A DNA stretch of 64,000 bases from an uncultured Clostridia bacterium (GTDB lineage Bacteria; Bacillota; Clostridia; Christensenellales; UBA1242), in assembly GCA_947632645.1 (NCBI GenBank), contig CANRQB010000001.1, forward strand, positions 1 to 64,000. Reading direction: 5' to 3'. Both the position numbers and the translations under genes were made by a program. Below the pieces are notes generated by a model. The model was not told the origin of the DNA and searched no databases. It saw only the letters and a list, made by a program, of their open reading frames with translations. Positions 25,476 through 54,696 of this stretch are shown here, piece after piece. Each line of letters opens with the position of its first letter. Position 1 is the stretch's first letter.

Positions 25476-25732
25476 TTTACTTTTCTATGCTAGGATTATC
25501 CTTACTTTTCTATGTTAGAAATTAAAACAATGGGCATTATTACAATAGTAATTAAAACACTTGTTACTATAGTAGTTAAAACAATCTGAATTAATAGTGT
25601 TTAAACTAATAATAATTCCGTTATAACTATAGTTATTAAAACGCCAATAGCATAATAACAATAAAAATTAAAACGATGGGCATTATTACAATAGTAATTA
25701 AAATTTTTATTATAACTATAGTTATTAAAAAA
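25476..25732. repeat. Tandem-like array of the palindromic repeat family (about 7 ATTAAAAC-ended units)
   Basis: Units end at about 25528, 25558, 25582, 25606, 25642, 25674, 25704, 25731 (intervals 24-36 bp); ATGGGCATTATTACAATAGTAATTAAAA occurs twice; TTACTTTTCTATG.TAG doublet at the left edge. Confidence 0.85.
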
Positions 25733-30939: not shown

Positions 30940-31221
30940 ATGAATAAAAATCAATTTGTAAACGAAGTGTACAGCAAAACAAAGCTTAGCAAAAAAGATT
31001 GTCGCCTGTGCCTGGATGCAATTTTGGCGGTTATAACCGATGCGCTGTCGTCTGGTGAGGCGGTTACACTTTCCAACTTTGGCAAGTTTAAAGTTAGCGA
31101 AACAAAAAGCAAGCCGATGTACAGTTTTAAAACGGGAAAAACTCAAATGTTTGCCGCCCGCCGCATACCAAGTTTTAAGGCGAGCGACAGTTTAAAGAAA
31201 AAAACCAGCGGTGGCTGGTAA
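30940..31221 (+). CDS. HU/IHF family DNA-binding protein
   Basis: MNKNQFVNEVYSKTKLSKKDCRLCLDAIL...VTLSNFGKFKV...RRIPSFKASDSLK; SD ggagg. Confidence 0.93.
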   Translation: MNKNQFVNEVYSKTKLSKKDCRLCLDAILAVITDALSSGEAVTLSNFGKFKVSETKSKPMYSFKTGKTQMFAARRIPSFKASDSLKKKTSGGW

Positions 31222-38683: not shown

Positions 38684-38748
38684 ATAATTAAATAGCACAA
38701 AATTAAATATATTTTGCAATTTTGGTTAAAATTAAATTAAGGGGTAAT

Positions 38749-41700
38749 ATGAAAAAATTTAATACTATATTAATAGTGATTTTAGCACTATTTTGTGGTG
38801 TAATTTTTTCTGCATGTAAAAACAGCTATAAGTTTAATGTTAAATTTTATTTAGAAGATAGCCAAATTTCTCAACTAAATTTGTATATAGACGAAAATGA
38901 TACCACCGCTACCCAACATCTATCCGTAAAATTTTCGCACATAAAATCAAGTAAAATTGGGCCGATAGAAATTACAATAGATCAAATGGGTGTGGCTAGC
39001 ATAAGCACTCCGGTAAAATCGGGCACAACCTTTAATTTTGATGTAACCGCACTTGCCCCAACAAGCGATGCAAATTTAATTGTGCGCCACCTATCATCCA
39101 ACAAAACAGCGCAAATAAAGCTTAATATACAAAAGCGCTCGTCCAAAGTGGTTAATCTTAACAAAACCTACGTGGTGGAAATTCCAAGCGAGGGCGTAAA
39201 AACAAGCTATATAAACACAAAACAGCTATTAAATTATAACGGCACGGAAAGGGTGTATTTTGCACTTGCAAACAACTCTACACTTCCTGCGGGCATAACC
39301 CCTGTTTATGAGGAGGTGGAGGGCAAATCTGTAATCGCTGGTTTTAATGTGCCTAGCCAAACAGTTGCCACAAGCCAAGATAGCAGCGACGTTTTATTAA
39401 ACCCAGTGTTTTATATCCCAAATTATTATAACCAAACCCAAACCGATATGGTTATTCACCTAAAATTTTTAAACCTGCTTTCTAAGGATAAAATCAATTT
39501 ACAAATAAACAACAGCGCCCAAAACTACAAAAGTGACGCATATCAAACTTTGTACGAGCAAAACAAGCCAATAATGTTGCTTTATAACGACGAAAATTTT
39601 AAAACTATAACGGCAAAATTCAGTTTTAATGCAGCTCTAACGGACTATAATAAATATTATAAAGCGCCAACCCTGGTTGCAAACAACGGGCAAAATGCAA
39701 ATTCCTTTAGTTTGGCACCAGCGGGCGAGGATAACAGCTACAATATATCGGCACAAAGTGTGGCGGATGCAAGCGTTATAAATTTTGTGTTTAACCCTAA
39801 CGAACAATACGTGGGCGATATTGTGCCATTTAACACAGGCATACAGCTTTCTAGTTCTAAGCGCGCCACCGATGTTGAAGTTCGCATGGACGATAGCGCT
39901 GTAGCGGACGAAGATCTTAACTATATTAACATTTTTGATAAATATTATGACGCTTCTTATGGCGAAAAGCTGGGCGCAAAATTCAACTTTGTGCCACAAA
40001 ACGGCGCGATAGAAGAGTTTGATTTTATGCGCATAACTATCCCAATGGGTATGCTGTTTAACGAAAATAACATCTATTCGCAACACGAGTTTGATTTAAT
40101 CGGAAACGAAACATTTTCTGGATTAATAGAAAGCGATGATAGGTTGCAAACCAACAATAATCTATTGCAAATTTACCTTAAAAACCAACCAATGCGCTTT
40201 TATTTAGATTCATATCTTGGTAGGCTCGTATCCGAAGTGTACTCTAGGGACGATAACATATTTATTAAATACTGCAAAAACACCTCGGGCGGAAATGCAG
40301 ACACACTTAATATGTCGGTGGAAAATGTGTATAAATACATGGGCAGCAGTTACGATGCTGGCTATGCTTATTTTAATAACTCGTCCGCTATATCTAGCTG
40401 CAACATAACATTTAGCGCACAAGAAGGGGTGCAAAGTGTTATAATTAAAGCAGGGTTTTCGTCTAACGGGTTGGTAACTTTTTATGACGGCGATGTTAAT
40501 CAAATTAGTATTGCTCGTTCGGATGAACGCCAATATGCTTTAAAAATAAATTCGGTTTTGGGTGGTTTGGGTGCACCTATATTAAATACAAAGTTTAATG
40601 TTTCTATTTTACCTAAAAACGATCAAGACAATTTGGTAAAATTAAAAATTGGCGATAATGGGGAAGAAAAAACCCAGCTAGAGTATAACTACACAAGTGC
40701 ATCTGCTAGCGACACAAGGCAATTTTTATATCTAAGTTTAAGCGGTGCAGATTTGGGCTATTATAACCTAACCATTTCGCATGCCAATGGCTATACCTTA
40801 ACCATCCCGCTGTTTGTTTACGACGAGGTTAGCGCTTCTGACCTATCATATACGCTACAAACTACATCTGGGCTAGATTTTGCAAACGAGGACGAAAATT
40901 ACTTGGCGGATTATCTTGTGCCTGCCGACGAAAACAGAAAACTTGGCTTGTTTATAGAAAACAACAATAAACTAGGTTTAAAGTTAAATTTAGATCAAAC
41001 TAGCCAACCTTTCTATAGCTTCCAATTGGATTTTGGCATGGAATACTCTTCACACGAAGTGCCAACCACCAATCGGCAGGCAAGAGATTTTGTTACAACA
41101 CAAAACTTCAGCAATCAAGACATGCAAGATTATAACAGCGCGTTTGGCAATTTTATAACCTTTAAAACCAATGCCAATGGCGAGGCAGGGTATTTTGAAA
41201 ACGGCAAAAACTATGTTATTGCAACAATAAAAATAAAAAGAAATTTCAGCTTTGATAATATAATATCCAATCCAGTGGCACAAAGCGAATACACTCAACA
41301 AAAACAAATACGTTTTTATATCTACAAAAAATTTAACAAAAATTTATTAACTCTACAATTTAGCAATAGAGATATTTTCTTTAACGATTATCTAGCGTAT
41401 GGTTTGCAGGAACAATCCACAACCGATCTAACCTTATCGTACCAAGCCGATGCGGATATTTGGAATTATGTGGACGAGGTGGTTTGGTCGTGCGATAGAG
41501 AGGTCGAGCAGGGCACAAGCTATCAGTTAACCAACACAAACAACAACAGCATTCAAATACAATTTTTACAGCACACTCTAAATAACTATTTTACATTTAT
41601 CGCAACAATAACTCAATTTGGCGTAAGTTCTTCGGTTGCGTCATCCATCCAAGTAAAAACTCCTGTTGTAACAACAGATTTGTTGGTTGACGATGTAAGT

Positions 41701-44700
41701 TACGATTACAACGGCAACTTTTATATAGATATACAGGCGGGCAAATCGCTAACATTAGGTTATCAACTATCAGCAAATGGCCAAATAACCAATCCGGGCG
41801 TGTTTATATATGTTGTAAATCGCAGCTATAACACGGGCAGCACACAATACGAGGTTAGCTTAAATAGGGAAAGCGTATACATAGATGGCAATCGAATCAA
41901 TGCCATTTCAAGCGAGCAAAACCTTAGTTTAATTGTAGTGGCAAGCGATGTGCTGAGTGCCGATTTAGCGGGCAACTACGCTGATTTAAACCAAATTACA
42001 AGCAAATTTTTGAACCCTAATAACGAGGATATTAGTCCATACTTAAATGCCTACAAAATTATAGATTTGCACATAACCGACGGCAACAGCGAGCAAACAG
42101 CGTTTATTATAGATAGCGTGCAGGATTTTGAGGGTATTAACGATTATGCAAATCAAGAAAAATACTTTGTTTTGCTAAACAACTTAAACTTATCTAGCAT
42201 ATCTGCGCCAATAACACACTTTAAAGGGCATCTATTTAGTTTAAACGGATACAACTTTAGTTTGGCAGAACTTACCTTAAGTGCTAGCTTGCCATATCTG
42301 TTTGAAAGCATTTTAGAGGGTGCAAGTGTAAAAAACATTAATATACAAGCAAACTTTAACTACAACAATCTTAGCAATTTAAATCTTGGTGTAATAGCAG
42401 AAAATGCGGGCGAGCTAACCGATGTAACAATAAATTTTGCGGGCAGCGCCGTTTTAAATAGATCGGCAAATTTTGGTGCTCTTGTTGGCGAAAATAGGGG
42501 CACAATAACTTACACTTCGGCACGCACAGCAGCTAGCGGCAACATAAGTTTAAGCGGTGGCGGACAGGCAGTGTTTGGTGGCTTGGTTGGGCTTAACAGC
42601 GGCAGTGTTACTGGATATAAATATCAACCACAACAAAGCGAAAGTTATGTGGTGTTTGCCGATGGTTTATATAATGGTGCAACTGCAGATATTAGCATAA
42701 CCTCTAGCTTAAGCAACGCGGATAGCGCAGTTGGTGGCTTAGTGGGCAAAAACACAGGCAAAATTAATCAAGTGCTTGTGTGCGGCACAATAAACGCAAC
42801 AAATAATGTTGGTGGTATAATTGGCATAAATCAACTTAGTGAAAAATCTGCACAAATCACCTATAACCGAACATCAGAGGGCAACCATATATCCAACATC
42901 TCATTTGAGCCAAACGAGTTTGAAGTACAAAATGCAATCAGTCAAGTTATAATTGTTGGCAGCCAAAATGTTGGCGGTGTGGTAGGGCGCGATAGATTTG
43001 GTAGATATTATAATTGCGCGTATCAAATTTATCAGCCAAATAAGGTGGCAGTGTCGGGCAGCACAAATGTTGGTGGTTTTGCCGGGCAATCGGCAGATGG
43101 CTGGTTTAACTATTGCTATGTTTATAGCTATAGGTGGAACTATGCTAGCTTAAGCAATATTGGTAGCACTAGTGAAAACCCAGCCGACATAACTGGCGCA
43201 AATAATGTTGGCGGGCTAGTTGGACAGGGTAGTTCTAGTTGGAGTGAACCAGTGCCGGATATCGCTAACACAACCGCCGCCCTTATAATTGCAAACTGCA
43301 GCGTTAATGCCTATGTTGGCGCCTTGGATGCAAACACTTTAACCGCGGGCTTAATAAATATTCAAACCGATGCTAACCAGCAACACAGCGCTATAACAAA
43401 TGCTTACTTCCTAGGCAGATTGTCGGGTAAAATTGTTAGCGATAACCACAGTTTGGCGCTAACAAACATAGCAGATACAGCAAATTTACTTCCTTTTTAT
43501 GGCGATGTGTATTCTAAATACTTTAATCAATCAACCACTACTTCGGGCAACTATCCAACCGAATTTAATCCAGATACAGCCAGTGGCGATGTTTGGGACA
43601 TAGATAATAGCGGCGAAACTAATGATGGCAGAATTAATGGCGGCAATGCTTATTTAAAATTTAATGGCAAACCACTGTTTGAACTTGCACCAACCAGTGT
43701 AAGCGCATCCGCAATAGAAAAAGAAAATATATTTGGCGCATATAAGTTAGATGACCACACCATATATTTAAACTACTATAACTTTAACTTAGATGCCAAC
43801 GAGCCAAATTATCAAGACATTTATAACCGCTTGCAAGAGCAGTACAACACATATAACATATTAGAACTATTTAATTTAACCTGCTTGCCAAGCAACATAA
43901 AAGTGCTTCAACTAACCACAAACTCTACTGGCAACTGCATATATATTCAAAACGAAAAACTTATCGTTCGTGGGGTTGGCCAAGCACAAGTTACCTTTAC
44001 AAGTTTAATAAATCCAAACGCACAAGACAGCGTTAAAATTATTGTCGGCTATCCATTTGGCAATTCGTTTATGCTAAAAGAAAGCACAACTGCAATAGGC
44101 GAGCTGGAAAATTTTGGCGTGGGCAGAAACCAAACCAAAGAGGTTACTGTGTCTTTCAGCGGCAATTTGGGCTTAAGCGACCACAACAACAAAAAATATA
44201 GCTATCAAACTAACAGCGAGGTTAAATATATTGTGGTTGCAAGTTTAATTGAAGGCGCAACCGATAGCGAATTTGAAGATTTTGTTGCAAACAGTTTGTT
44301 TATTGGCGGCAAAAACCTTATTAAAGAGGGTGGCACATGGACTGCAAATGTTAGCAATTTAACCATAAATGTAAAAGCAGATTTTAAAGGGATAATTAAT
44401 ATTAAGGTGCAACCTTATATAGAAATTAGTTCTTATAATAAGCAAATAATCTATAGCACCACAAAACAATTTAATTTAACCACGCTTATTGGTGCCCGTG
44501 CCGTAGAGATGCAAACCAGAGGTGGTTGGGTGTATCCAAACACATCGCTAACCAAAGAAAATAGCTTTGAAGTGGATATCTTAACCGATTTTGCCTATAC
44601 GGAAGATCAACTGGATTTTGCGTTAGATAGCGAACTTAAAATATACATTTCCATCGATGGCGAACGCATAAATATAGGCAACATAAAGGATATAATCGAT

Positions 44701-47700
44701 TTTGAGCTGGATAGCTTGGGCAACAAACTTATTTCGTACGATGATAGTTTGCAAAAACAAACCATAAAATTTAAAATAAAATTTGCAAAATTCGAAGATA
44801 TTATAGCAGAGTACAATCTAGATAAATCTGCTGCACACATATTGCTATTTGAATTTGAAATAAACAATAAAATGGGTTGGGTGGCATTTAACCTTGCACC
44901 TCAACAAATATTTGATGTAAATTTAAGAAATTATGTTGTAGAAAATAACGAACTAGTGGAAAGCCCACTTTTATATCGTGGAAAATCGGGCGTGGTTATT
45001 ATAGATATGTATCCAAAAAATGGTTATTTTGACTTTTTGGAGATACGCGACATAACCCCAAATGCCGACACACTTATCCAATTTATTCAGGTAAATCACA
45101 ATTTGGTTAAAGACAACGTTAACATCGGCGACGATATAGAAACTGAGGATGGTCTGGGCATAGAGCTTAACAAAAATGCCTTTAATGCGGATGATAATAA
45201 AATTTATGCACTTACCCAAATATTAAATAATCAGTTAGAAATAGACCATCAAATAGAAGTGATTGCCTATGTTGGCAGCAGGGAAAATAAATTAAAAGTT
45301 GGCCGCAGTGTGCTAGAACTTACCATTAGGCTGCAACCTGAGTTAGAAGTGGATTATCTAAAACCAGACGGCTCTAAATATATTTCGGTAGACGAAAGCA
45401 AGCAGATGGATTCTAACGAAATTGCTTATGGCACTAATGTTGATTTTAGAACAATAACCCAATATGTGGATGGCTTGCGTGCCGAAATTAGTTTTACTAG
45501 CGACTATGGCTTGGGCGATGTTAATCAGTACTTTAATTTAGTTCAACTTAACAATGGCTATTTTAGGCTTAATAGCATCTTACGTGACGAGCGGCTTATA
45601 AATAAGGAAATAACCTTAAAATTTACTGGCGTGCGTGCAACCAACACGGGCGAGGAGATAACCACAGAAAGATCATTCAACTTAAAGATTGCAAGACTAA
45701 AGGTGTTTAATGTAAGCATACGCCAAAACAGCCATATGGTGGGCGATAGTTTAGAAGTGTATGGCAACTTTAACATTCCTATCGATTTAGAGTTCTATTT
45801 TGCGCCAACCGATGTTAGCTACTATATGTATCCAAACACCGAATTTAGGTTTAATAGCCAGTTTAACGACGATGGCGCTACATCACTTGTAAACATATTA
45901 AAAACGCTTAACGGGTTTAACGGCGACGAATTTGATGTGACAAGCATTTTAAGTTGGTACGGACAAAAGCAAGGAGAAACGGTTAAAGTTAACGAAGATG
46001 AGTTAATAGAAGGTGGCGAGTATGGTGTAGTTGTATCCAGAAGCGGAACAACTCCGCCACAAATAACAGTTAAATCCAACTACACTATAAGTTATTTGCA
46101 GCTTAAATTTAATTTGGTGGATGATAGCAATTACAACAAAATGGTGGCGGCTTTATCTGAGGAAGATAGCGTGGCCGAATTTGTTATTATTGCACGGCTA
46201 AACTTCCAGCGCATAACCCCTGTATTTGATGCAATACTAATTAAAAACAATGCCGATTTGCTAAACATGGCAGGTGCCGAAAGCCGATACATTTTGGGCT
46301 GCGATTTAACCTTTGACGAAAACAATCCATACACTCCGTTCGATTTGGATGTGGCTTCGTTTGACGGCAATGGGCATACAATTAATATTTCTGCCTTTAA
46401 TCTTTTAGACGGCAACACAATAAATGCTGGCTTGTTTACAAGCATATCTGCAACATCAGTTGTGCAAAATGTACAAGTGAATTATAACTTAGGCAAAATT
46501 TCAGTTGGGCGTCAACTATTCTCTACCGAAAGCGTGGCGCTTGGCAATCCAAATGGCAACTATGACGCTATCAATTTTGGCGGAATAGCGGTGCAAAACC
46601 ATGGCGTTATAACCAATTGCAAAGTGGTTGGCAGCACAATATTCAGCCAAGCAAACATCAATATAGCAGCAGTAATTAAACAAGATAACAAAAACATAAG
46701 TCCATTTAACATAGGCGGAGTGGCATACATCAACGATAGCAATGCCTTTATAACCAACACGATTAGCGAACTTAAAATTGCGGCAATGGCAAACACTGGT
46801 GCGCTGGTGCACACAAATAATGGCACAATAACCAGTTCGTACTACAATGCGATGGACGAGGCTGGGTTAATGTATATGTATCAAACCGAGCAAATAGATG
46901 ACGGCAGTGGCAACACAATAGCACTGGATGCAAACTCGGCTGGATTTGTGCTTAACAATAATGGCAGAATTGATATGTGCTATGTAATTTCGGGCAAAAC
47001 CACGTTTGATAATGGCAATATAGGCAACCTATCTGCCAATAACGATTTTGCTGGCTTTGTGTACAACAACAACAACGCTAGCATAACAAACTGCTACACA
47101 AATGTGGAATTAATGGGCAGAAGCGAAAGCCAATTTGCAGGGTTTGTTATCGATAACCGCAATGGCACAATACAAAATTGCTATAGTTATATAAATCAAG
47201 GTGAAAACCTAGATAGGCGCTATTTGGCATTTGTTCCAGCGGCCAACGACGGCGAGCTGATCAATTGCTACACAATAAGAAACAACGGCGCAAGGCCAGA
47301 GTACGATAGCAATAAAGTTACAACTATAAATAAAAACGAGCTGTATGGTTCGCAAGCGGATGCAAGCTTTGCAGGGTTTAGTTTTGGCGACCATAAGTCG
47401 GGCATCTGGCAAATGCAATTTAACGTGATTGCTTTGCCACAGCTATCCGCTACGCTAGAAACCATACCATTCACCCAGCAAGATGAACCAGACATACTAG
47501 AAACCGTTACTCACTATTATGGCTGGAAGGATATCGATCTTTACGAAGACGGCAGCAATGAAATTATTGTTAAAAACGATGGCAGCGAAAAAAACCCTTA
47601 TGTAATATACGACATACAAACCTGGAATGCCTATTTTGAATCAGATAACTATAAAAATGGCTATTATAGGTTGGTTGCAGATATTAACTTTAATGGAACT

Positions 47701-49626
47701 GCACCTTATACAAGCGGGGTAGAATTTTCTGGCAACATTCAGGGCAACGGGCTAACCATAAGCAACTTTGCGCTTAGCACCGAGCAGGATTTAAACTCTA
47801 TCGGTTTGTTTAGCGCCCTAAATGGCGAATATAACAACTACGATAACAACGCAATACGAAATCTAAACATAAAGGATGTTAGCATCTCGGCAATAAAAAC
47901 CCAGTCGGTGGGTGTGCTTGCCGGTGTTATATCCAACTACAAACTATACAACATCACACTAGATAGCACACAAATTTTGCTAGGTGAAAATGTGGTTGGT
48001 GGCTTAAGTGGCATCATCTCCAACCGATTTGATATCGAGCATATTTCGTCCAACATAAGTGCGCATAATGACTTTGCTGTTAAGCCGGGCAACTACGAGG
48101 TTTACACTTCTAGAATAAATGGACTAACACAAAATTTAAACAGAGTATACTATGCGGGCAGCGTGGCAGGTATTGTGGATGCAATTCCTGTTGGCACTAC
48201 GTTTGATATAACCAGTCGCAACACCACGGACGGCTATTCTATAAGGGATATATCCGTTGCGGGCGATATAACCCTTATATCCAACACGGTAGGTGGGGCG
48301 TTTGGCTTAATTAACGAATACACCAACCTAACCGATGTTATAGTAAATTTAACTGAGGGCACAGGTAAACTGGCTGGCTATCAATATAGCGCGGGTGTGG
48401 TTGGTGAAAATCGCGGCGTTATAAAGGGCGCAACCTTTGAAAGTGCAAACGACCAAGTGTTTAACTCGGCGCGCGCAACGGCAGCCGGATTGGTCGGCTT
48501 AAATTTGGGTTACATTAAAAATGCTTCAACCAAATTTAACGCAATACGAACCAATTTTGAAAACAACAACTACCGCAATGTAAACACCATTCTTGCTGGC
48601 TTGGTTGGCAGAAATGCAGAAGGGTATATTGTGGATTCTAGCTTTGACGGAAAAATTATTTCGGCTTGGAGCAACCCTAACGAGGTTACTGCCGGCATAA
48701 TTGGCACGGATTACACGCTAAGCAGTTTTGTTGGCGAAAACGAAAATCAACAGGTAAACAACAGCGTGTTTAGCCCATACTCCAAGTTTACATATAACGA
48801 TCCAGACACAACGCTAAATAGCCATATAATAAATGTTAGTGTATCAAAAAATGCAGTGGATTTCTGGTTGGATAATTTAAATTACATCTATGATGTTAAA
48901 AGTGTCAGCGAACAAAATCCATTTGAAATAAAAACTGGCAGAGTGCTTGCTGCAGGAATTGGCTTAAAATTAACAAACGATAGCTATCCATCATATAGCG
49001 ACAATAACTATAACTTTGGTTTTGATTCTAACTACAACTTTGTTATGAATGCTACTTTAGAAGTTACAATGCCGCAATTTGGTGCGCTTCAAAACATTAC
49101 AATGTATAACGACGAAGTGTGCTCTACCCCTTATGCAAACATATTTAACTACACAACTAAGGATAACAAGGTGTACATCCTAAATGCGCTGGGTAGTTAT
49201 GTGCTTAGCTTTGACTATTTTGAAGCCAATAGCTACACCTGCGAGATGATGATTTTAGCAAACAATCTAGACATCAAGAAAATTTCAATTAAGGCAGTGG
49301 TTGAAAACACCGAAACACAAGTGCAAGAAACTAAAGATGTAATCATTTATAAAATTGCTACGACTTTGGTTAGCACTAGCGATTGGACATTTGTAATCTA
49401 TTCTAACTTATCCGAATATAAAGGTGCAAGTTATCAAACGAGTGTGGATTTGTTCTTTGTTGGCAGCATTACAGACGAAAATATTTCGGGTGCAACAATA
49501 AATAAAAATCAATCTTCAGGCACAACATACGTGTTTGATGAACAAAAAGGAGAAGACCCTAATATAACTTCTAACATAACAATCACTACCACTTCGGGCA
49601 CTATTATTAACTTTAGATTTATGTAA
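38749..49626 (+). CDS. Giant (about 3625 aa) GLUG-motif surface lipoprotein
   Basis: SD aagggg before MKKFNTILIVILALFCGVIFSAC (lipobox); repeated GLUG-type segments (FGGLVGLNSGSV, VGGLVGKNTGKI, VGGIIGIN, VGGVVGRD, AGLVGRNAEGYI); BIG2-like stretch (YIQNEKLIVRGVGQAQVTFTS). Confidence 0.9.
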   Translation: MKKFNTILIVILALFCGVIFSACKNSYKFNVKFYLEDSQISQLNLYIDENDTTATQHLSVKFSHIKSSKIGPIEITIDQMGVASISTPVKSGTTFNFDVTALAPTSDANLIVRHLSSNKTAQIKLNIQKRSSKVVNLNKTYVVEIPSEGVKTSYINTKQLLNYNGTERVYFALANNSTLPAGITPVYEEVEGKSVIAGFNVPSQTVATSQDSSDVLLNPVFYIPNYYNQTQTDMVIHLKFLNLLSKDKINLQINNSAQNYKSDAYQTLYEQNKPIMLLYNDENFKTITAKFSFNAALTDYNKYYKAPTLVANNGQNANSFSLAPAGEDNSYNISAQSVADASVINFVFNPNEQYVGDIVPFNTGIQLSSSKRATDVEVRMDDSAVADEDLNYINIFDKYYDASYGEKLGAKFNFVPQNGAIEEFDFMRITIPMGMLFNENNIYSQHEFDLIGNETFSGLIESDDRLQTNNNLLQIYLKNQPMRFYLDSYLGRLVSEVYSRDDNIFIKYCKNTSGGNADTLNMSVENVYKYMGSSYDAGYAYFNNSSAISSCNITFSAQEGVQSVIIKAGFSSNGLVTFYDGDVNQISIARSDERQYALKINSVLGGLGAPILNTKFNVSILPKNDQDNLVKLKIGDNGEEKTQLEYNYTSASASDTRQFLYLSLSGADLGYYNLTISHANGYTLTIPLFVYDEVSASDLSYTLQTTSGLDFANEDENYLADYLVPADENRKLGLFIENNNKLGLKLNLDQTSQPFYSFQLDFGMEYSSHEVPTTNRQARDFVTTQNFSNQDMQDYNSAFGNFITFKTNANGEAGYFENGKNYVIATIKIKRNFSFDNIISNPVAQSEYTQQKQIRFYIYKKFNKNLLTLQFSNRDIFFNDYLAYGLQEQSTTDLTLSYQADADIWNYVDEVVWSCDREVEQGTSYQLTNTNNNSIQIQFLQHTLNNYFTFIATITQFGVSSSVASSIQVKTPVVTTDLLVDDVSYDYNGNFYIDIQAGKSLTLGYQLSANGQITNPGVFIYVVNRSYNTGSTQYEVSLNRESVYIDGNRINAISSEQNLSLIVVASDVLSADLAGNYADLNQITSKFLNPNNEDISPYLNAYKIIDLHITDGNSEQTAFIIDSVQDFEGINDYANQEKYFVLLNNLNLSSISAPITHFKGHLFSLNGYNFSLAELTLSASLPYLFESILEGASVKNINIQANFNYNNLSNLNLGVIAENAGELTDVTINFAGSAVLNRSANFGALVGENRGTITYTSARTAASGNISLSGGGQAVFGGLVGLNSGSVTGYKYQPQQSESYVVFADGLYNGATADISITSSLSNADSAVGGLVGKNTGKINQVLVCGTINATNNVGGIIGINQLSEKSAQITYNRTSEGNHISNISFEPNEFEVQNAISQVIIVGSQNVGGVVGRDRFGRYYNCAYQIYQPNKVAVSGSTNVGGFAGQSADGWFNYCYVYSYRWNYASLSNIGSTSENPADITGANNVGGLVGQGSSSWSEPVPDIANTTAALIIANCSVNAYVGALDANTLTAGLINIQTDANQQHSAITNAYFLGRLSGKIVSDNHSLALTNIADTANLLPFYGDVYSKYFNQSTTTSGNYPTEFNPDTASGDVWDIDNSGETNDGRINGGNAYLKFNGKPLFELAPTSVSASAIEKENIFGAYKLDDHTIYLNYYNFNLDANEPNYQDIYNRLQEQYNTYNILELFNLTCLPSNIKVLQLTTNSTGNCIYIQNEKLIVRGVGQAQVTFTSLINPNAQDSVKIIVGYPFGNSFMLKESTTAIGELENFGVGRNQTKEVTVSFSGNLGLSDHNNKKYSYQTNSEVKYIVVASLIEGATDSEFEDFVANSLFIGGKNLIKEGGTWTANVSNLTINVKADFKGIINIKVQPYIEISSYNKQIIYSTTKQFNLTTLIGARAVEMQTRGGWVYPNTSLTKENSFEVDILTDFAYTEDQLDFALDSELKIYISIDGERINIGNIKDIIDFELDSLGNKLISYDDSLQKQTIKFKIKFAKFEDIIAEYNLDKSAAHILLFEFEINNKMGWVAFNLAPQQIFDVNLRNYVVENNELVESPLLYRGKSGVVIIDMYPKNGYFDFLEIRDITPNADTLIQFIQVNHNLVKDNVNIGDDIETEDGLGIELNKNAFNADDNKIYALTQILNNQLEIDHQIEVIAYVGSRENKLKVGRSVLELTIRLQPELEVDYLKPDGSKYISVDESKQMDSNEIAYGTNVDFRTITQYVDGLRAEISFTSDYGLGDVNQYFNLVQLNNGYFRLNSILRDERLINKEITLKFTGVRATNTGEEITTERSFNLKIARLKVFNVSIRQNSHMVGDSLEVYGNFNIPIDLEFYFAPTDVSYYMYPNTEFRFNSQFNDDGATSLVNILKTLNGFNGDEFDVTSILSWYGQKQGETVKVNEDELIEGGEYGVVVSRSGTTPPQITVKSNYTISYLQLKFNLVDDSNYNKMVAALSEEDSVAEFVIIARLNFQRITPVFDAILIKNNADLLNMAGAESRYILGCDLTFDENNPYTPFDLDVASFDGNGHTINISAFNLLDGNTINAGLFTSISATSVVQNVQVNYNLGKISVGRQLFSTESVALGNPNGNYDAINFGGIAVQNHGVITNCKVVGSTIFSQANINIAAVIKQDNKNISPFNIGGVAYINDSNAFITNTISELKIAAMANTGALVHTNNGTITSSYYNAMDEAGLMYMYQTEQIDDGSGNTIALDANSAGFVLNNNGRIDMCYVISGKTTFDNGNIGNLSANNDFAGFVYNNNNASITNCYTNVELMGRSESQFAGFVIDNRNGTIQNCYSYINQGENLDRRYLAFVPAANDGELINCYTIRNNGARPEYDSNKVTTINKNELYGSQADASFAGFSFGDHKSGIWQMQFNVIALPQLSATLETIPFTQQDEPDILETVTHYYGWKDIDLYEDGSNEIIVKNDGSEKNPYVIYDIQTWNAYFESDNYKNGYYRLVADINFNGTAPYTSGVEFSGNIQGNGLTISNFALSTEQDLNSIGLFSALNGEYNNYDNNAIRNLNIKDVSISAIKTQSVGVLAGVISNYKLYNITLDSTQILLGENVVGGLSGIISNRFDIEHISSNISAHNDFAVKPGNYEVYTSRINGLTQNLNRVYYAGSVAGIVDAIPVGTTFDITSRNTTDGYSIRDISVAGDITLISNTVGGAFGLINEYTNLTDVIVNLTEGTGKLAGYQYSAGVVGENRGVIKGATFESANDQVFNSARATAAGLVGLNLGYIKNASTKFNAIRTNFENNNYRNVNTILAGLVGRNAEGYIVDSSFDGKIISAWSNPNEVTAGIIGTDYTLSSFVGENENQQVNNSVFSPYSKFTYNDPDTTLNSHIINVSVSKNAVDFWLDNLNYIYDVKSVSEQNPFEIKTGRVLAAGIGLKLTNDSYPSYSDNNYNFGFDSNYNFVMNATLEVTMPQFGALQNITMYNDEVCSTPYANIFNYTTKDNKVYILNALGSYVLSFDYFEANSYTCEMMILANNLDIKKISIKAVVENTETQVQETKDVIIYKIATTLVSTSDWTFVIYSNLSEYKGASYQTSVDLFFVGSITDENISGATINKNQSSGTTYVFDEQKGEDPNITSNITITTTSGTIINFRFM

Positions 49627-52032: not shown

Positions 52033-52336
52033 AAATTCTCCTATATTTATTTTATTTTAAATAATTAAAATTATCCTATAAATATATAATAGCAAAAATA
52101 TTAAAAAAAGTCAATAATTTAAATTAATATTAAAATAAATTTTTTATATTACAAAATAAAATAGCAATAAATGTATATAAATACTAAAAAATAGGTTTTT
52201 TAATTAATTTATTATATTTTAGGTTTATAAAATTAAAATATTTTTAAAAAATATTAAAAAAATGTTAAAAAATATTAGTATTTAATATTTATTTGTGTTA
52301 TAATAAAATTAATAAATTATTTATTAAGGGGTTTTT

Positions 52337-54673
52337 ATGAATAATTTTATTTTCACCTTTTTTGATAGCATAAGCAGCTACATAAGTTTTAATCAAATTT
52401 TGTTTATAACTTTGGGCTTGTTTTTGTTTACTATGTTTGTGGTTATAATCACCACCTCTCGCAGTTACGAGGCAAAGCTTATCAAATCGATAAACCGATT
52501 TAACAACTATTTCAGCAACAACCCTCAACTTACCGAAGATAACCTGCTGCAATTTAACAAGATGATGAAAAGCTCTAGGGTGCCTCGCCTAATTTGCAAG
52601 CAATGGCAACAATTTGTGCTATATCGCGAGGGCAAAGCAAGCAGCTATCTTTCATACGAAATCTGCGTTAACAATCCACTTAAAAACAGCTCGTACAAAC
52701 GCGATGTTAAGGTTATGAATTTGGTTAGCTATCTAATTGCATTTTTGTCGTTTATAGTAAATGTCTTTTGCGCTTACGAGCTAGATGTTGTAACTATGTT
52801 CCAGTTTATATTCTTAGGCCCAGTTATTGTGCTTATATTAAACTGGCTTGTAAGTGTAATATTAACAATAAAGTATAACGCAATTGTAAACGATGTAAAC
52901 CAAACATTTGCCTTTTTCCAAGTTAATATAGATAAGGCCACGCAAACCATTCCAGAGTATGTGGATTACGAAGTGTTGTTTGAAAAATCCGAAATTAAAC
53001 GTGGCATACCAATTTTGTACGCGTATCTTCAAAAGCGTGCAGAGGACGAAAAGCGTGAGTTAGAGCGTGCTAGGCTTAAAAATGTAGAGCACGAAAAATT
53101 TAACTTTGACGAAGCGGGTGTGGAATCCAGCTTGGTGCTAGAGCGTGCCATGCAAGAGGCAGAAAATTATATTGCCGAGCGTAAAAAGTACATGGAGGAC
53201 ACCTCGCAGGTTAACAACGAAATTAATCAGGAAGATTTAAACTATCGCGAAATTACCAAAGAGTATCAACGTCAAATGCAGGTTAGTAAAGAAAGCTTTA
53301 ACAACTTTAAAGATCAGCTAAGCGAAGCATCCTCTACAATCGAAGCAAACTACCTTAAAAAGCAACAACAACAAGAGTTGGATCGTCAGCGCAATTTGGA
53401 GCGTGACTACGATGCAGCAACCGAGCGTCATAAAAAGGCAATCGAAAGCCTACAGCAGGAGTTAAGCGAACTGGAAAAAAGCATAAATGCTTCCCGCTCG
53501 GCACTGGAAAAAGCCATGATGAGCGAGTTTGCAACTTATGGCAGCAAGGTGTACGATGCAGCACATAAACTGGCAACCTATCGCGAGCAAGAAAAGGTTA
53601 CCGATCTTAAAAAAGAAATTAAGCAGTTAGAAGAAAAGATTGTGCTACTAAATCAAAACAAACCAACCGATGCAGATGACGGAAGTGCTACTGTAGATCA
53701 AAATTTAATTTGGCCAACAGTAGAGGACGAGCAAATAGAATCTGCCAAGCAAGAGGAAGAGGTTACCAAACAACCAACCGAGCCAATAGTGGATAAGCCA
53801 GCCGAGCCAGTGGTACAGCCAGTTGGTGAGGCACAAAAGGTAGAACCGCTAGAGGAAGATGATAGCGATGACTGGGATTTTGAGTTTGACGACGACGAAG
53901 ACAATACCGAGCCACAACAAGAGCAAGTGGAAAATGATGCGCCAAATGCTTTAGAGGCAGGCATAACCTTTAATTATTTGGATGAGGCCCCAACTTCTAA
54001 TTCAACTTATACTCCAGCGCAAGAGCAACCAGTTGAACAACCAGTCGAAGAGGTTGAGCAGTCAGCCGAACAAGTTAACGAGCAGCCAGTCGAAGAGGTT
54101 GAGCAGTCAGCCGAACAAGCAATTGAGCAGACAACAGAAGAGGTTAAGCAAGAGCCAACCGAAGTTAAGCCAAGGAAAAAGGCAGGGCGGCCAAGAAAAG
54201 AGGTTTCTCCAGACGAACTAAATAAGCCAAAACGCCCACGCGGCAGGCCCAAAAAAGAAGTTGACGAGGCAGAGCTAGAAAAACCAAAACGTCCACGTGG
54301 CAGGCCTAAAAAACAAGAAGTGGTAAGCGAGCCAGCCAATACTGTGGCAAAGCGTGGCAGGCCCAAAAAGGAAGAGGCAGTAAGCGAACTAACAACCGAG
54401 CAGGCCGCACCGGCTAAAAAACGTGGTAGACCAAGAAAGGTTATAATAATAGAAGAAGAGACACCAGCCGAAGCACCTAAAAAACGCGGCCGGCCAAGAA
54501 AGATAGTTGTGCGCGAAATACCAAAAGATAGCACAATTTTGCCACCATCTATAACCGATATAGACGAATATTTAAAGGCAATAGATAACCAAATTGCCGA
54601 GGAAAATTTAAAAATAGAGCAGTCACAAAAAGAGTTGGAAAAAAATTCAACCATTAGGCGCAGAAAAAAATAA
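52337..54673 (+). CDS. Membrane-anchored coiled-coil protein with C-terminal AT-hook-like motifs
   Basis: N-terminal TM segments, about 300-aa charged coiled coil, acidic/EQPVEEVEQ-repeat region, then six GRP-core motifs (AGRPRK, RPRGRPKK x2, KRGRPKK, KKRGRPRK x2). Confidence 0.85.
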   Translation: MNNFIFTFFDSISSYISFNQILFITLGLFLFTMFVVIITTSRSYEAKLIKSINRFNNYFSNNPQLTEDNLLQFNKMMKSSRVPRLICKQWQQFVLYREGKASSYLSYEICVNNPLKNSSYKRDVKVMNLVSYLIAFLSFIVNVFCAYELDVVTMFQFIFLGPVIVLILNWLVSVILTIKYNAIVNDVNQTFAFFQVNIDKATQTIPEYVDYEVLFEKSEIKRGIPILYAYLQKRAEDEKRELERARLKNVEHEKFNFDEAGVESSLVLERAMQEAENYIAERKKYMEDTSQVNNEINQEDLNYREITKEYQRQMQVSKESFNNFKDQLSEASSTIEANYLKKQQQQELDRQRNLERDYDAATERHKKAIESLQQELSELEKSINASRSALEKAMMSEFATYGSKVYDAAHKLATYREQEKVTDLKKEIKQLEEKIVLLNQNKPTDADDGSATVDQNLIWPTVEDEQIESAKQEEEVTKQPTEPIVDKPAEPVVQPVGEAQKVEPLEEDDSDDWDFEFDDDEDNTEPQQEQVENDAPNALEAGITFNYLDEAPTSNSTYTPAQEQPVEQPVEEVEQSAEQVNEQPVEEVEQSAEQAIEQTTEEVKQEPTEVKPRKKAGRPRKEVSPDELNKPKRPRGRPKKEVDEAELEKPKRPRGRPKKQEVVSEPANTVAKRGRPKKEEAVSELTTEQAAPAKKRGRPRKVIIIEEETPAEAPKKRGRPRKIVVREIPKDSTILPPSITDIDEYLKAIDNQIAEENLKIEQSQKELEKNSTIRRRKK
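54041..54119 (+). repeat. In-frame 45-bp direct repeat (34 identical bp per copy)
   Basis: CCAGTCGAAGAGGTTGAGCAGTCAGCCGAACAAG at 54041 and 54086. Confidence 0.9.
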
Positions 54674-54696
54674 AGGAAGGGCAGCCTTCCTTTTTT
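54672..54696. terminator. Rho-independent terminator
   Basis: AAAGGAAGG-GCAG-CCTTCCTTTTTT. Confidence 0.85.

Follow-up and report, generated by a model that had tools for sequence, protein, structure and literature searches.

AT-hooks recognize short AT tracts and are known from eukaryotic HMGA-type tails and from CarD of Myxococcus; AT-hook-like peptides can bind RNA as well. How bacteria attach their chromosomes to the membrane has long been asked, and to our knowledge few integral-membrane chromosome tethers are known in them. No bacterial AT-hook tether with a membrane anchor came up in a literature search, although this does not prove that none exists. The xenogeneic silencers Lsr2, H-NS and MvaT (PMC4466236) read the minor groove of AT-rich DNA in bacteria, but these are soluble proteins of other folds with no membrane part. 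In Trypanosoma, the AT-hook/SPKK protein TAC53 is the presumed DNA-side end of the tripartite attachment complex (PMC13108849), which is alike in idea to the case described here, being a membrane-linked genome attachment. That complex is eukaryotic, multi-protein and unrelated, whereas here a single protein would span from membrane to DNA.

On the membrane side, the closest described proteins are the TolQ/ExbB/MotA stators (PF01618) and ZorA, which is a pentamer. In ZorA of the Zorya system, the stator fold has three TM helices; a cytoplasmic domain separates TM1 from TM2, and a long cytoplasmic helical extension follows TM3 (PDB 8qyd, 8qyy, 8qyk and 8qyh; PMC11890865), and in both ZorAB and MotAB a conserved Ser/Thr ring faces the aspartate of the partner protein (PMC11890865). 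The protein described below appears to share these three features with ZorA, and with the TolQ/ExbB/MotA stators a predicted topology (N-out/C-in, with a large cytoplasmic loop) and the overall fold. Unlike ZorA, it has no detected ZorB-like partner and no conserved Ser/Thr ring, it carries an AT-hook tail, and its gene has conserved neighbours and is not part of a defence island; unlike TolQ/ExbB/MotA, it gives no PF01618 match, and the TolR/ExbD/MotB family was undetected in the genomes of its family. Like other AT-hook proteins (PF02178), it has several GRP cores with basic flanks in its tail, but its hooks belong to a protein with an integral-membrane anchor, from a Clostridia lineage with small genomes.

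The window analysed here is a stretch of 64,000 nt from an 885 kb assembly, 88.5% complete, of the Candidatus Onthoplasma group, small-genome gut bacteria whose genus NCBI places in Christensenellales; the relatives identified by sequence are Candidatus Onthoplasma species and Clostridia MAGs. From the domain order, fold resemblance, predicted C-in topology and hook retention computed for one of its proteins, we infer DNA binding, oligomerization and tethering, and the best explanation is probably a constitutive chromosome-to-membrane tether. If this is true, a family of gut bacteria with small genomes would keep a one-protein tether whose DNA-binding tail is exchangeable and whose anchor has a fold in common with ion-motor proteins.

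Organization of the gene and its product

An earlier note on this DNA had described a 778-aa reading frame for a protein with N-terminal TM helices, a long coiled coil, an acidic Pro/Glu linker and six AT-hook-like motifs. The ORF was found at the position given there, with an ATG start and an RBS-like sequence (Table 1), and the six quoted motifs were exact, namely AGRPRK once, RGRPKK three times and RGRPRK twice. The acidic linker was also present and is rich in Gln in addition to Pro and Glu. TM helices are indeed located at the N-terminus, but there are three of them and not just the stretch quoted, TM1 having been missed; the coiled coil is likewise present and is modelled as an antiparallel hairpin. 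The stator-like ZorA/TolQ fold, the addA neighbourhood and the conserved C-terminal segment had not been mentioned. In the structure model, TM3 forms one continuous helix from residue 151 to approximately residue 202. ORFs that run antisense to the hook tail (215 aa at 54007–54654) were rejected as genes and represent mirror images of the repeats.

Table 1. Features of the AT-hook gene and its product, in window coordinates
Feature	Position	Strand	Basis or remark
RBS-like AAGGGG, 5 nt 5' of ATG	52326..52331	+	Sequence
Whole gene, membrane-anchored AT-hook protein, 778 aa	52337..54673	+	ATG start
N-terminal membrane domain, residues 1–226, ZorA/TolQ/ExbB-like fold (predicted)	52337..53014	+	AlphaFold2, Foldseek, hhalign
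TM1, residues 18–41	52388..52459	+	Model and topology analysis
Basic loop, predicted cytoplasmic, residues 42–118	52460..52690	+	W90 invariant; P83 and S102 near-invariant
TM2, residues 119–145	52691..52771	+	Model and topology analysis
TM3 and its predicted cytoplasmic helical continuation, residues 151–202	52787..52942	+	P162 in 55/58
Antiparallel coiled-coil hairpin, residues 262–330 against 334–439	53120..53653	+	AlphaFold2 model of residues 1–440, pLDDT 85.5
Acidic Pro/Glu/Gln linker	53669..54166	+	Partly a 45-bp tandem repeat
AT-hook 1, KKAGRPRK	54176..54202	+	
AT-hook 2, RPRGRPKK	54233..54259	+	
AT-hook 3, RPRGRPKK	54290..54316	+	
AT-hook 4, AKRGRPKK	54347..54373	+	
AT-hook 5, KKRGRPRK	54416..54442	+	
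AT-hook 6, KKRGRPRK	54479..54505	+	
Conserved C-terminal helix-like segment, approximately 30 residues (740–770), after the hooks	54554..54646	+	Genus consensus DIDaYLKEIDdQIAkEnAKiEeskKeLEKn
Terminator-like hairpin, gene end	54672..54693	+	Well placed, yet an equal number is expected by chance in the region

AT-hooks in the C-terminal tail

The six GRP[RK]K hooks lie within residues 614–723, with GRP at residues 617, 636, 655, 674, 697 and 718, a spacing of approximately 19 residues. The Pfam AT_hook model (PF02178) matched four stretches with 30 bits against a curated cut-off of 17.4 (E=3e-7). GRP[RK] was observed six times in the tail, compared with a mean of 0.017 in composition-preserving shuffles, and none of 300 shuffles reached six. 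The codon pattern GGNMGNCCNARRAAR, corresponding to GRP[KR]K, gave six matches in the 884,927-base assembly and none in the reversed-pattern control; since the window gene contains six in-frame copies, it is the only clear AT-hook gene of the assembly.

Binding of the tail to the AT-rich palindrome arrays of the window in particular, as suggested earlier, is unsupported, because AT-hooks read short AT tracts, which are ubiquitous in a genome of such composition (the window is approximately 62% AT). AT-rich tandem arrays with a palindromic unit of the type TAATTAC..GTAATTA are located at 1903–2039 and 25516–25703 and are perhaps the arrays that were meant; no link between these two arrays and the AT-hook gene was found.

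Fold and topology of the membrane domain

The AlphaFold2 model of residues 1–226, built from 48 sequences, had a mean pLDDT of 93.5 and a pTM of 0.82. In a Foldseek search against PDB, ranks 1–4 were all ZorA (TM-score by query 0.56–0.58, E 6e-3 to 1e-2, probability 1.00). Most of the next hits were TolQ/ExbB chains, many of them within the top 20; with a longer model, ZorA was again first and TolQ next. In hhalign, the profile of the N-domain matched ZorA-like proteins from the same order over 182 columns (probability 92%, P=6.3e-7). For the reversed profile the probability was 0.2%, and among 30 block-shuffled profiles the top score was 26.4, against 50.4 for the real one. Because of this profile–profile match and the failure of the reversed and shuffled controls, alongside the Foldseek results, the predicted MotA/TolQ/ExbB (ZorA-like) fold of the N-domain is a good assignment, though a remote one.

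The Pfam, NCBIfam and PHROGs libraries miss the anchor fold. Domain searches of residues 1–440 with Pfam and NCBIfam returned coiled-coil matches and low-scoring noise only, PHROGs gave no match, a sequence search of PDB gave coiled coils only, and the BFVD viral fold library returned nothing significant. An HMM of the N-domain had no match in a small set of order-level MotA and ZorA-like loci, and the profile–profile comparison alone succeeded.

ZorA as the top structural match, with its long cytoplasmic rods (PMC11890865), would suit a working ZorAB-like ion-driven motor with an undetected partner, moving the coiled-coil rods and bound DNA for defence or chromosome movement. However, PF01618 (MotA_ExbB) matched neither the window protein nor anything in 54 family genomes (0/54), and the partner families were also undetected, MotB_plug (PF13677) in 0/54 and ExbD (PF02472) in 0/36, under conditions in which positive controls in model genomes were detected; a highly diverged partner could escape this search. 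In addition, no column of TM2 or TM3 exceeded approximately 62% Ser/Thr among 58 sequences, and within the membrane TM3 had P162 as its sole near-invariant residue. Most family genomes also have the gene, and its neighbours are conserved, whereas a defence system would be expected to be patchy. With no partner family found and no conserved Ser/Thr ring, we rejected both a working member of the motor family and a Zorya system, which would have ZorB plus ZorC/D or ZorE beside ZorA, the neighbours here being housekeeping genes, with addA in other genera, and MotB_plug not being detected; an ion-driven motor is thus very unlikely. The anchor appears to be a protein of the TolQ/ExbB/ZorA fold, or a near structural relative of that fold, that lacks a motor function.

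Over 58 homologues, the mean number of Lys and Arg residues was 0.9 before TM1, 13.0 in the 42–118 loop and 0.3 in the segment that joins TM2 to TM3. Beyond residue 200 there was no hydrophobic segment. This positive-inside pattern predicts an N-out/C-in topology, so that everything after TM3, including the hooks, would be cytoplasmic. The C-terminus, whose location outside the cell the earlier note had regarded as incompatible with its proposal, is accordingly predicted to lie inside.

Conservation of the hooks and of the anchor

Residues 1–444 matched 80 of 149 relatives, nearly all of the same family, and 12 family genomes gave no match. Every genus orthologue with a complete C-terminus (28/28) carries hooks, 3–11 in number with a median spacing of 19 residues. 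Mean identity to the window protein within the genus was 53% for the N-domain, 70% for the coiled coil and 35% for the tail, and the hook Arg codons of the window gene differ (CGG, AGG and AGA). The divergence of the tail and the variation of these codons suggest that the peptide motif is kept, and not merely a DNA repeat. The DNA of the acidic linker and hook region is repetitive, with periods of 45 bp and 57 bp, and this could reflect a low-complexity tail without specific function, grown by repeat slippage. Such an origin is hardly credible, given that codon use differs among the hooks and that hooks persist in all 28 genus orthologues and in 57 rows that make up roughly a single clade.

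Outside this set, 40 further complete family orthologues were compared, some of them tool-assigned to the genus but more distant: 15 have at least three hooks, one has a single hook and 24 have none. Hookless sister genera retain the remainder of the protein. In a tree of residues 1–440 (85 sequences), the 57 hook-bearing rows fell into two sister groups together with two hookless rows. This distribution of hooks requires only two changes of state, compared with a mean of 20.9 for shuffled labels, on a tree made by a quick method, with some long branches, in which hook gain and hook loss are not distinguishable. The earlier proposal of a membrane-to-nucleoid tether from the combination of TM helices and AT-hooks, with a survey of orthologues for their co-conservation, is therefore supported in part: the predicted C-in topology and the genus-wide hooks agree with it, but co-conservation does not extend to the whole family. 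Orthologues that keep the N-terminus but lack GRP motifs, which the earlier note had named as counter-evidence, do occur outside the genus, so that this objection applies in part.

The N-domain was detected in 142 of 396 genomes of the order, the family itself counted, and outside the family the tails examined were acidic or short and GRP was absent. Since hooks are absent from 24 of the 40 family orthologues and from the tails examined outside the family, the anchor probably predates the hooks, which seem to have been added in one lineage and strongly retained there. Among the 24 hookless orthologues, a clustered basic segment beyond shuffles (p<=0.05) was found in 12 and not in the other 12; in view of the latter 12 and of the acidic or short tails elsewhere, DNA binding would not be a universal role of the anchor. 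Among the 12 with such a segment, one tail (L096) is of the AKKSSTKKAPAKKTTAKKAPAKK type (H1-like, Lys-rich, KKA/STKK class) and gave a sub-threshold HC2 histone H1-like match (E=1.2e-4), and two others (L074 and L077) contain an RRNRGRKP segment.

This variety of tail types among relatives (H1-like Lys-rich, RNRGRKP, and some without), and the general knowledge that AT-hook-like peptides can also bind RNA, are consistent with GRP repeats that form a generic polybasic segment and bind RNA, ribosomes, anionic lipid or teichoic acid precursors instead of the chromosome. We regard this as unlikely, as in the 57 hook-clade rows the GRP cores stay exact although the linkers drift, and a simple polycation would have no need of that. 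A broader evolutionary reading is possible but is put forward with some doubt: a motorless ZorA/TolQ-like ring may have become a multi-arm membrane–chromosome cable in a whole Christensenellales family, the DNA-gripping end having changed over time, with AT-hooks in one large clade (57 rows sampled, with no clear loss) and H1-like Lys-rich or RGR-type tails in sister genera.

Several further observations were made on the relatives. A distant short family relative of 414 aa (L101, G054), which has no coiled coil, ends in two RGRGRP motifs, possibly an independent gain of AT-hooks. Acidic Tyr/Gly/Asp tandem repeats (e.g. YDENGGYYDAQGYYRYKDGSYYDPLGNYYDSNG) occur in the linker of five hookless orthologues (L067, L082, L092, L093 and L098). 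In other families of the order (L159–L178), the same N-terminal membrane domain is present, and many of the proteins have, close to the C-terminus, a short helical segment of the PHLVDYVLTMNLSRSMKIKVA kind; these proteins are a widespread, unnamed membrane family of the order.

Proposed mechanism of tethering

In a constitutive chromosome-to-membrane tether, the N-domain would be a three-helix membrane module with a stator fold, in which motor function was lost or never present, and it would probably oligomerize in the membrane by analogy with the pentameric ZorA. TM3 would continue as a long helix into the cytoplasm, and the coiled-coil hairpin and flexible acidic linker that follow would serve as a spacer. 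The six hooks, approximately 19 residues apart, would bind AT-rich DNA in its minor groove with high avidity and low specificity. AT-rich targets would be available nearly everywhere in an AT-rich genome, and the grip of the hooks would keep the nucleoid near the membrane. This reading also draws support from the clustered basic segments of 12 hookless orthologues, from the two RGRGRP motifs of the short relative L101 and from the addA gene next to the orthologues of other genera. Points on the other side are the 12 hookless orthologues with no such segment, the lack of an adjacent addA in Onthoplasma and Foldseek E-values of only approximately 6e-3.

Gene neighbourhood and chromosome machinery

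In the window, the neighbouring genes encode QueH, alanine racemase, Zn_peptidase_2, a histidine phosphatase, DUF1858 and an LTA-synthase-like sulfatase, and much of this arrangement is kept in the genus. In 35 of 37 loci of other, more distant genera (L062–L098), the orthologue is immediately preceded on its own strand by an addA-like gene, identified as a UvrD helicase plus a PD-(D/E)XK match, with a median gap of 108 bp. A Band-7-like gene is found near the orthologue in approximately 15 loci of other genera. The immediate proximity of addA would be expected of a membrane recruiter of DNA repair, which docks AddAB or broken chromosome ends and uses its basic tail mainly to hold DNA for recombination. 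In Onthoplasma, however, no addA was found near the gene, which lies instead close to the alanine racemase, Zn_peptidase_2 and sulfatase genes, and conservation of neighbours need not imply a common function; a repair recruiter is therefore quite improbable.

The genus keeps ordinary ParB and HU, so that a tether of the proposed kind would be an addition to them and not a substitute. ParB was not found in the window's own 88.5% complete assembly, but nearly all relatives have one, and its absence there is probably an assembly gap. An HU-type gene (PF00216) is located in the window at 30940–31203 (+), and a second HU gene lies on another contig. The window also contains a very large ORF at 38722–49626 (+), of 3634 aa when read from TTG, with GLUG-like repeats. 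Translation probably begins at the ATG of MKKFNTILIVILALFCGVIFSAC, which has a lipoprotein-type signal, and the product is probably a giant surface lipoprotein.
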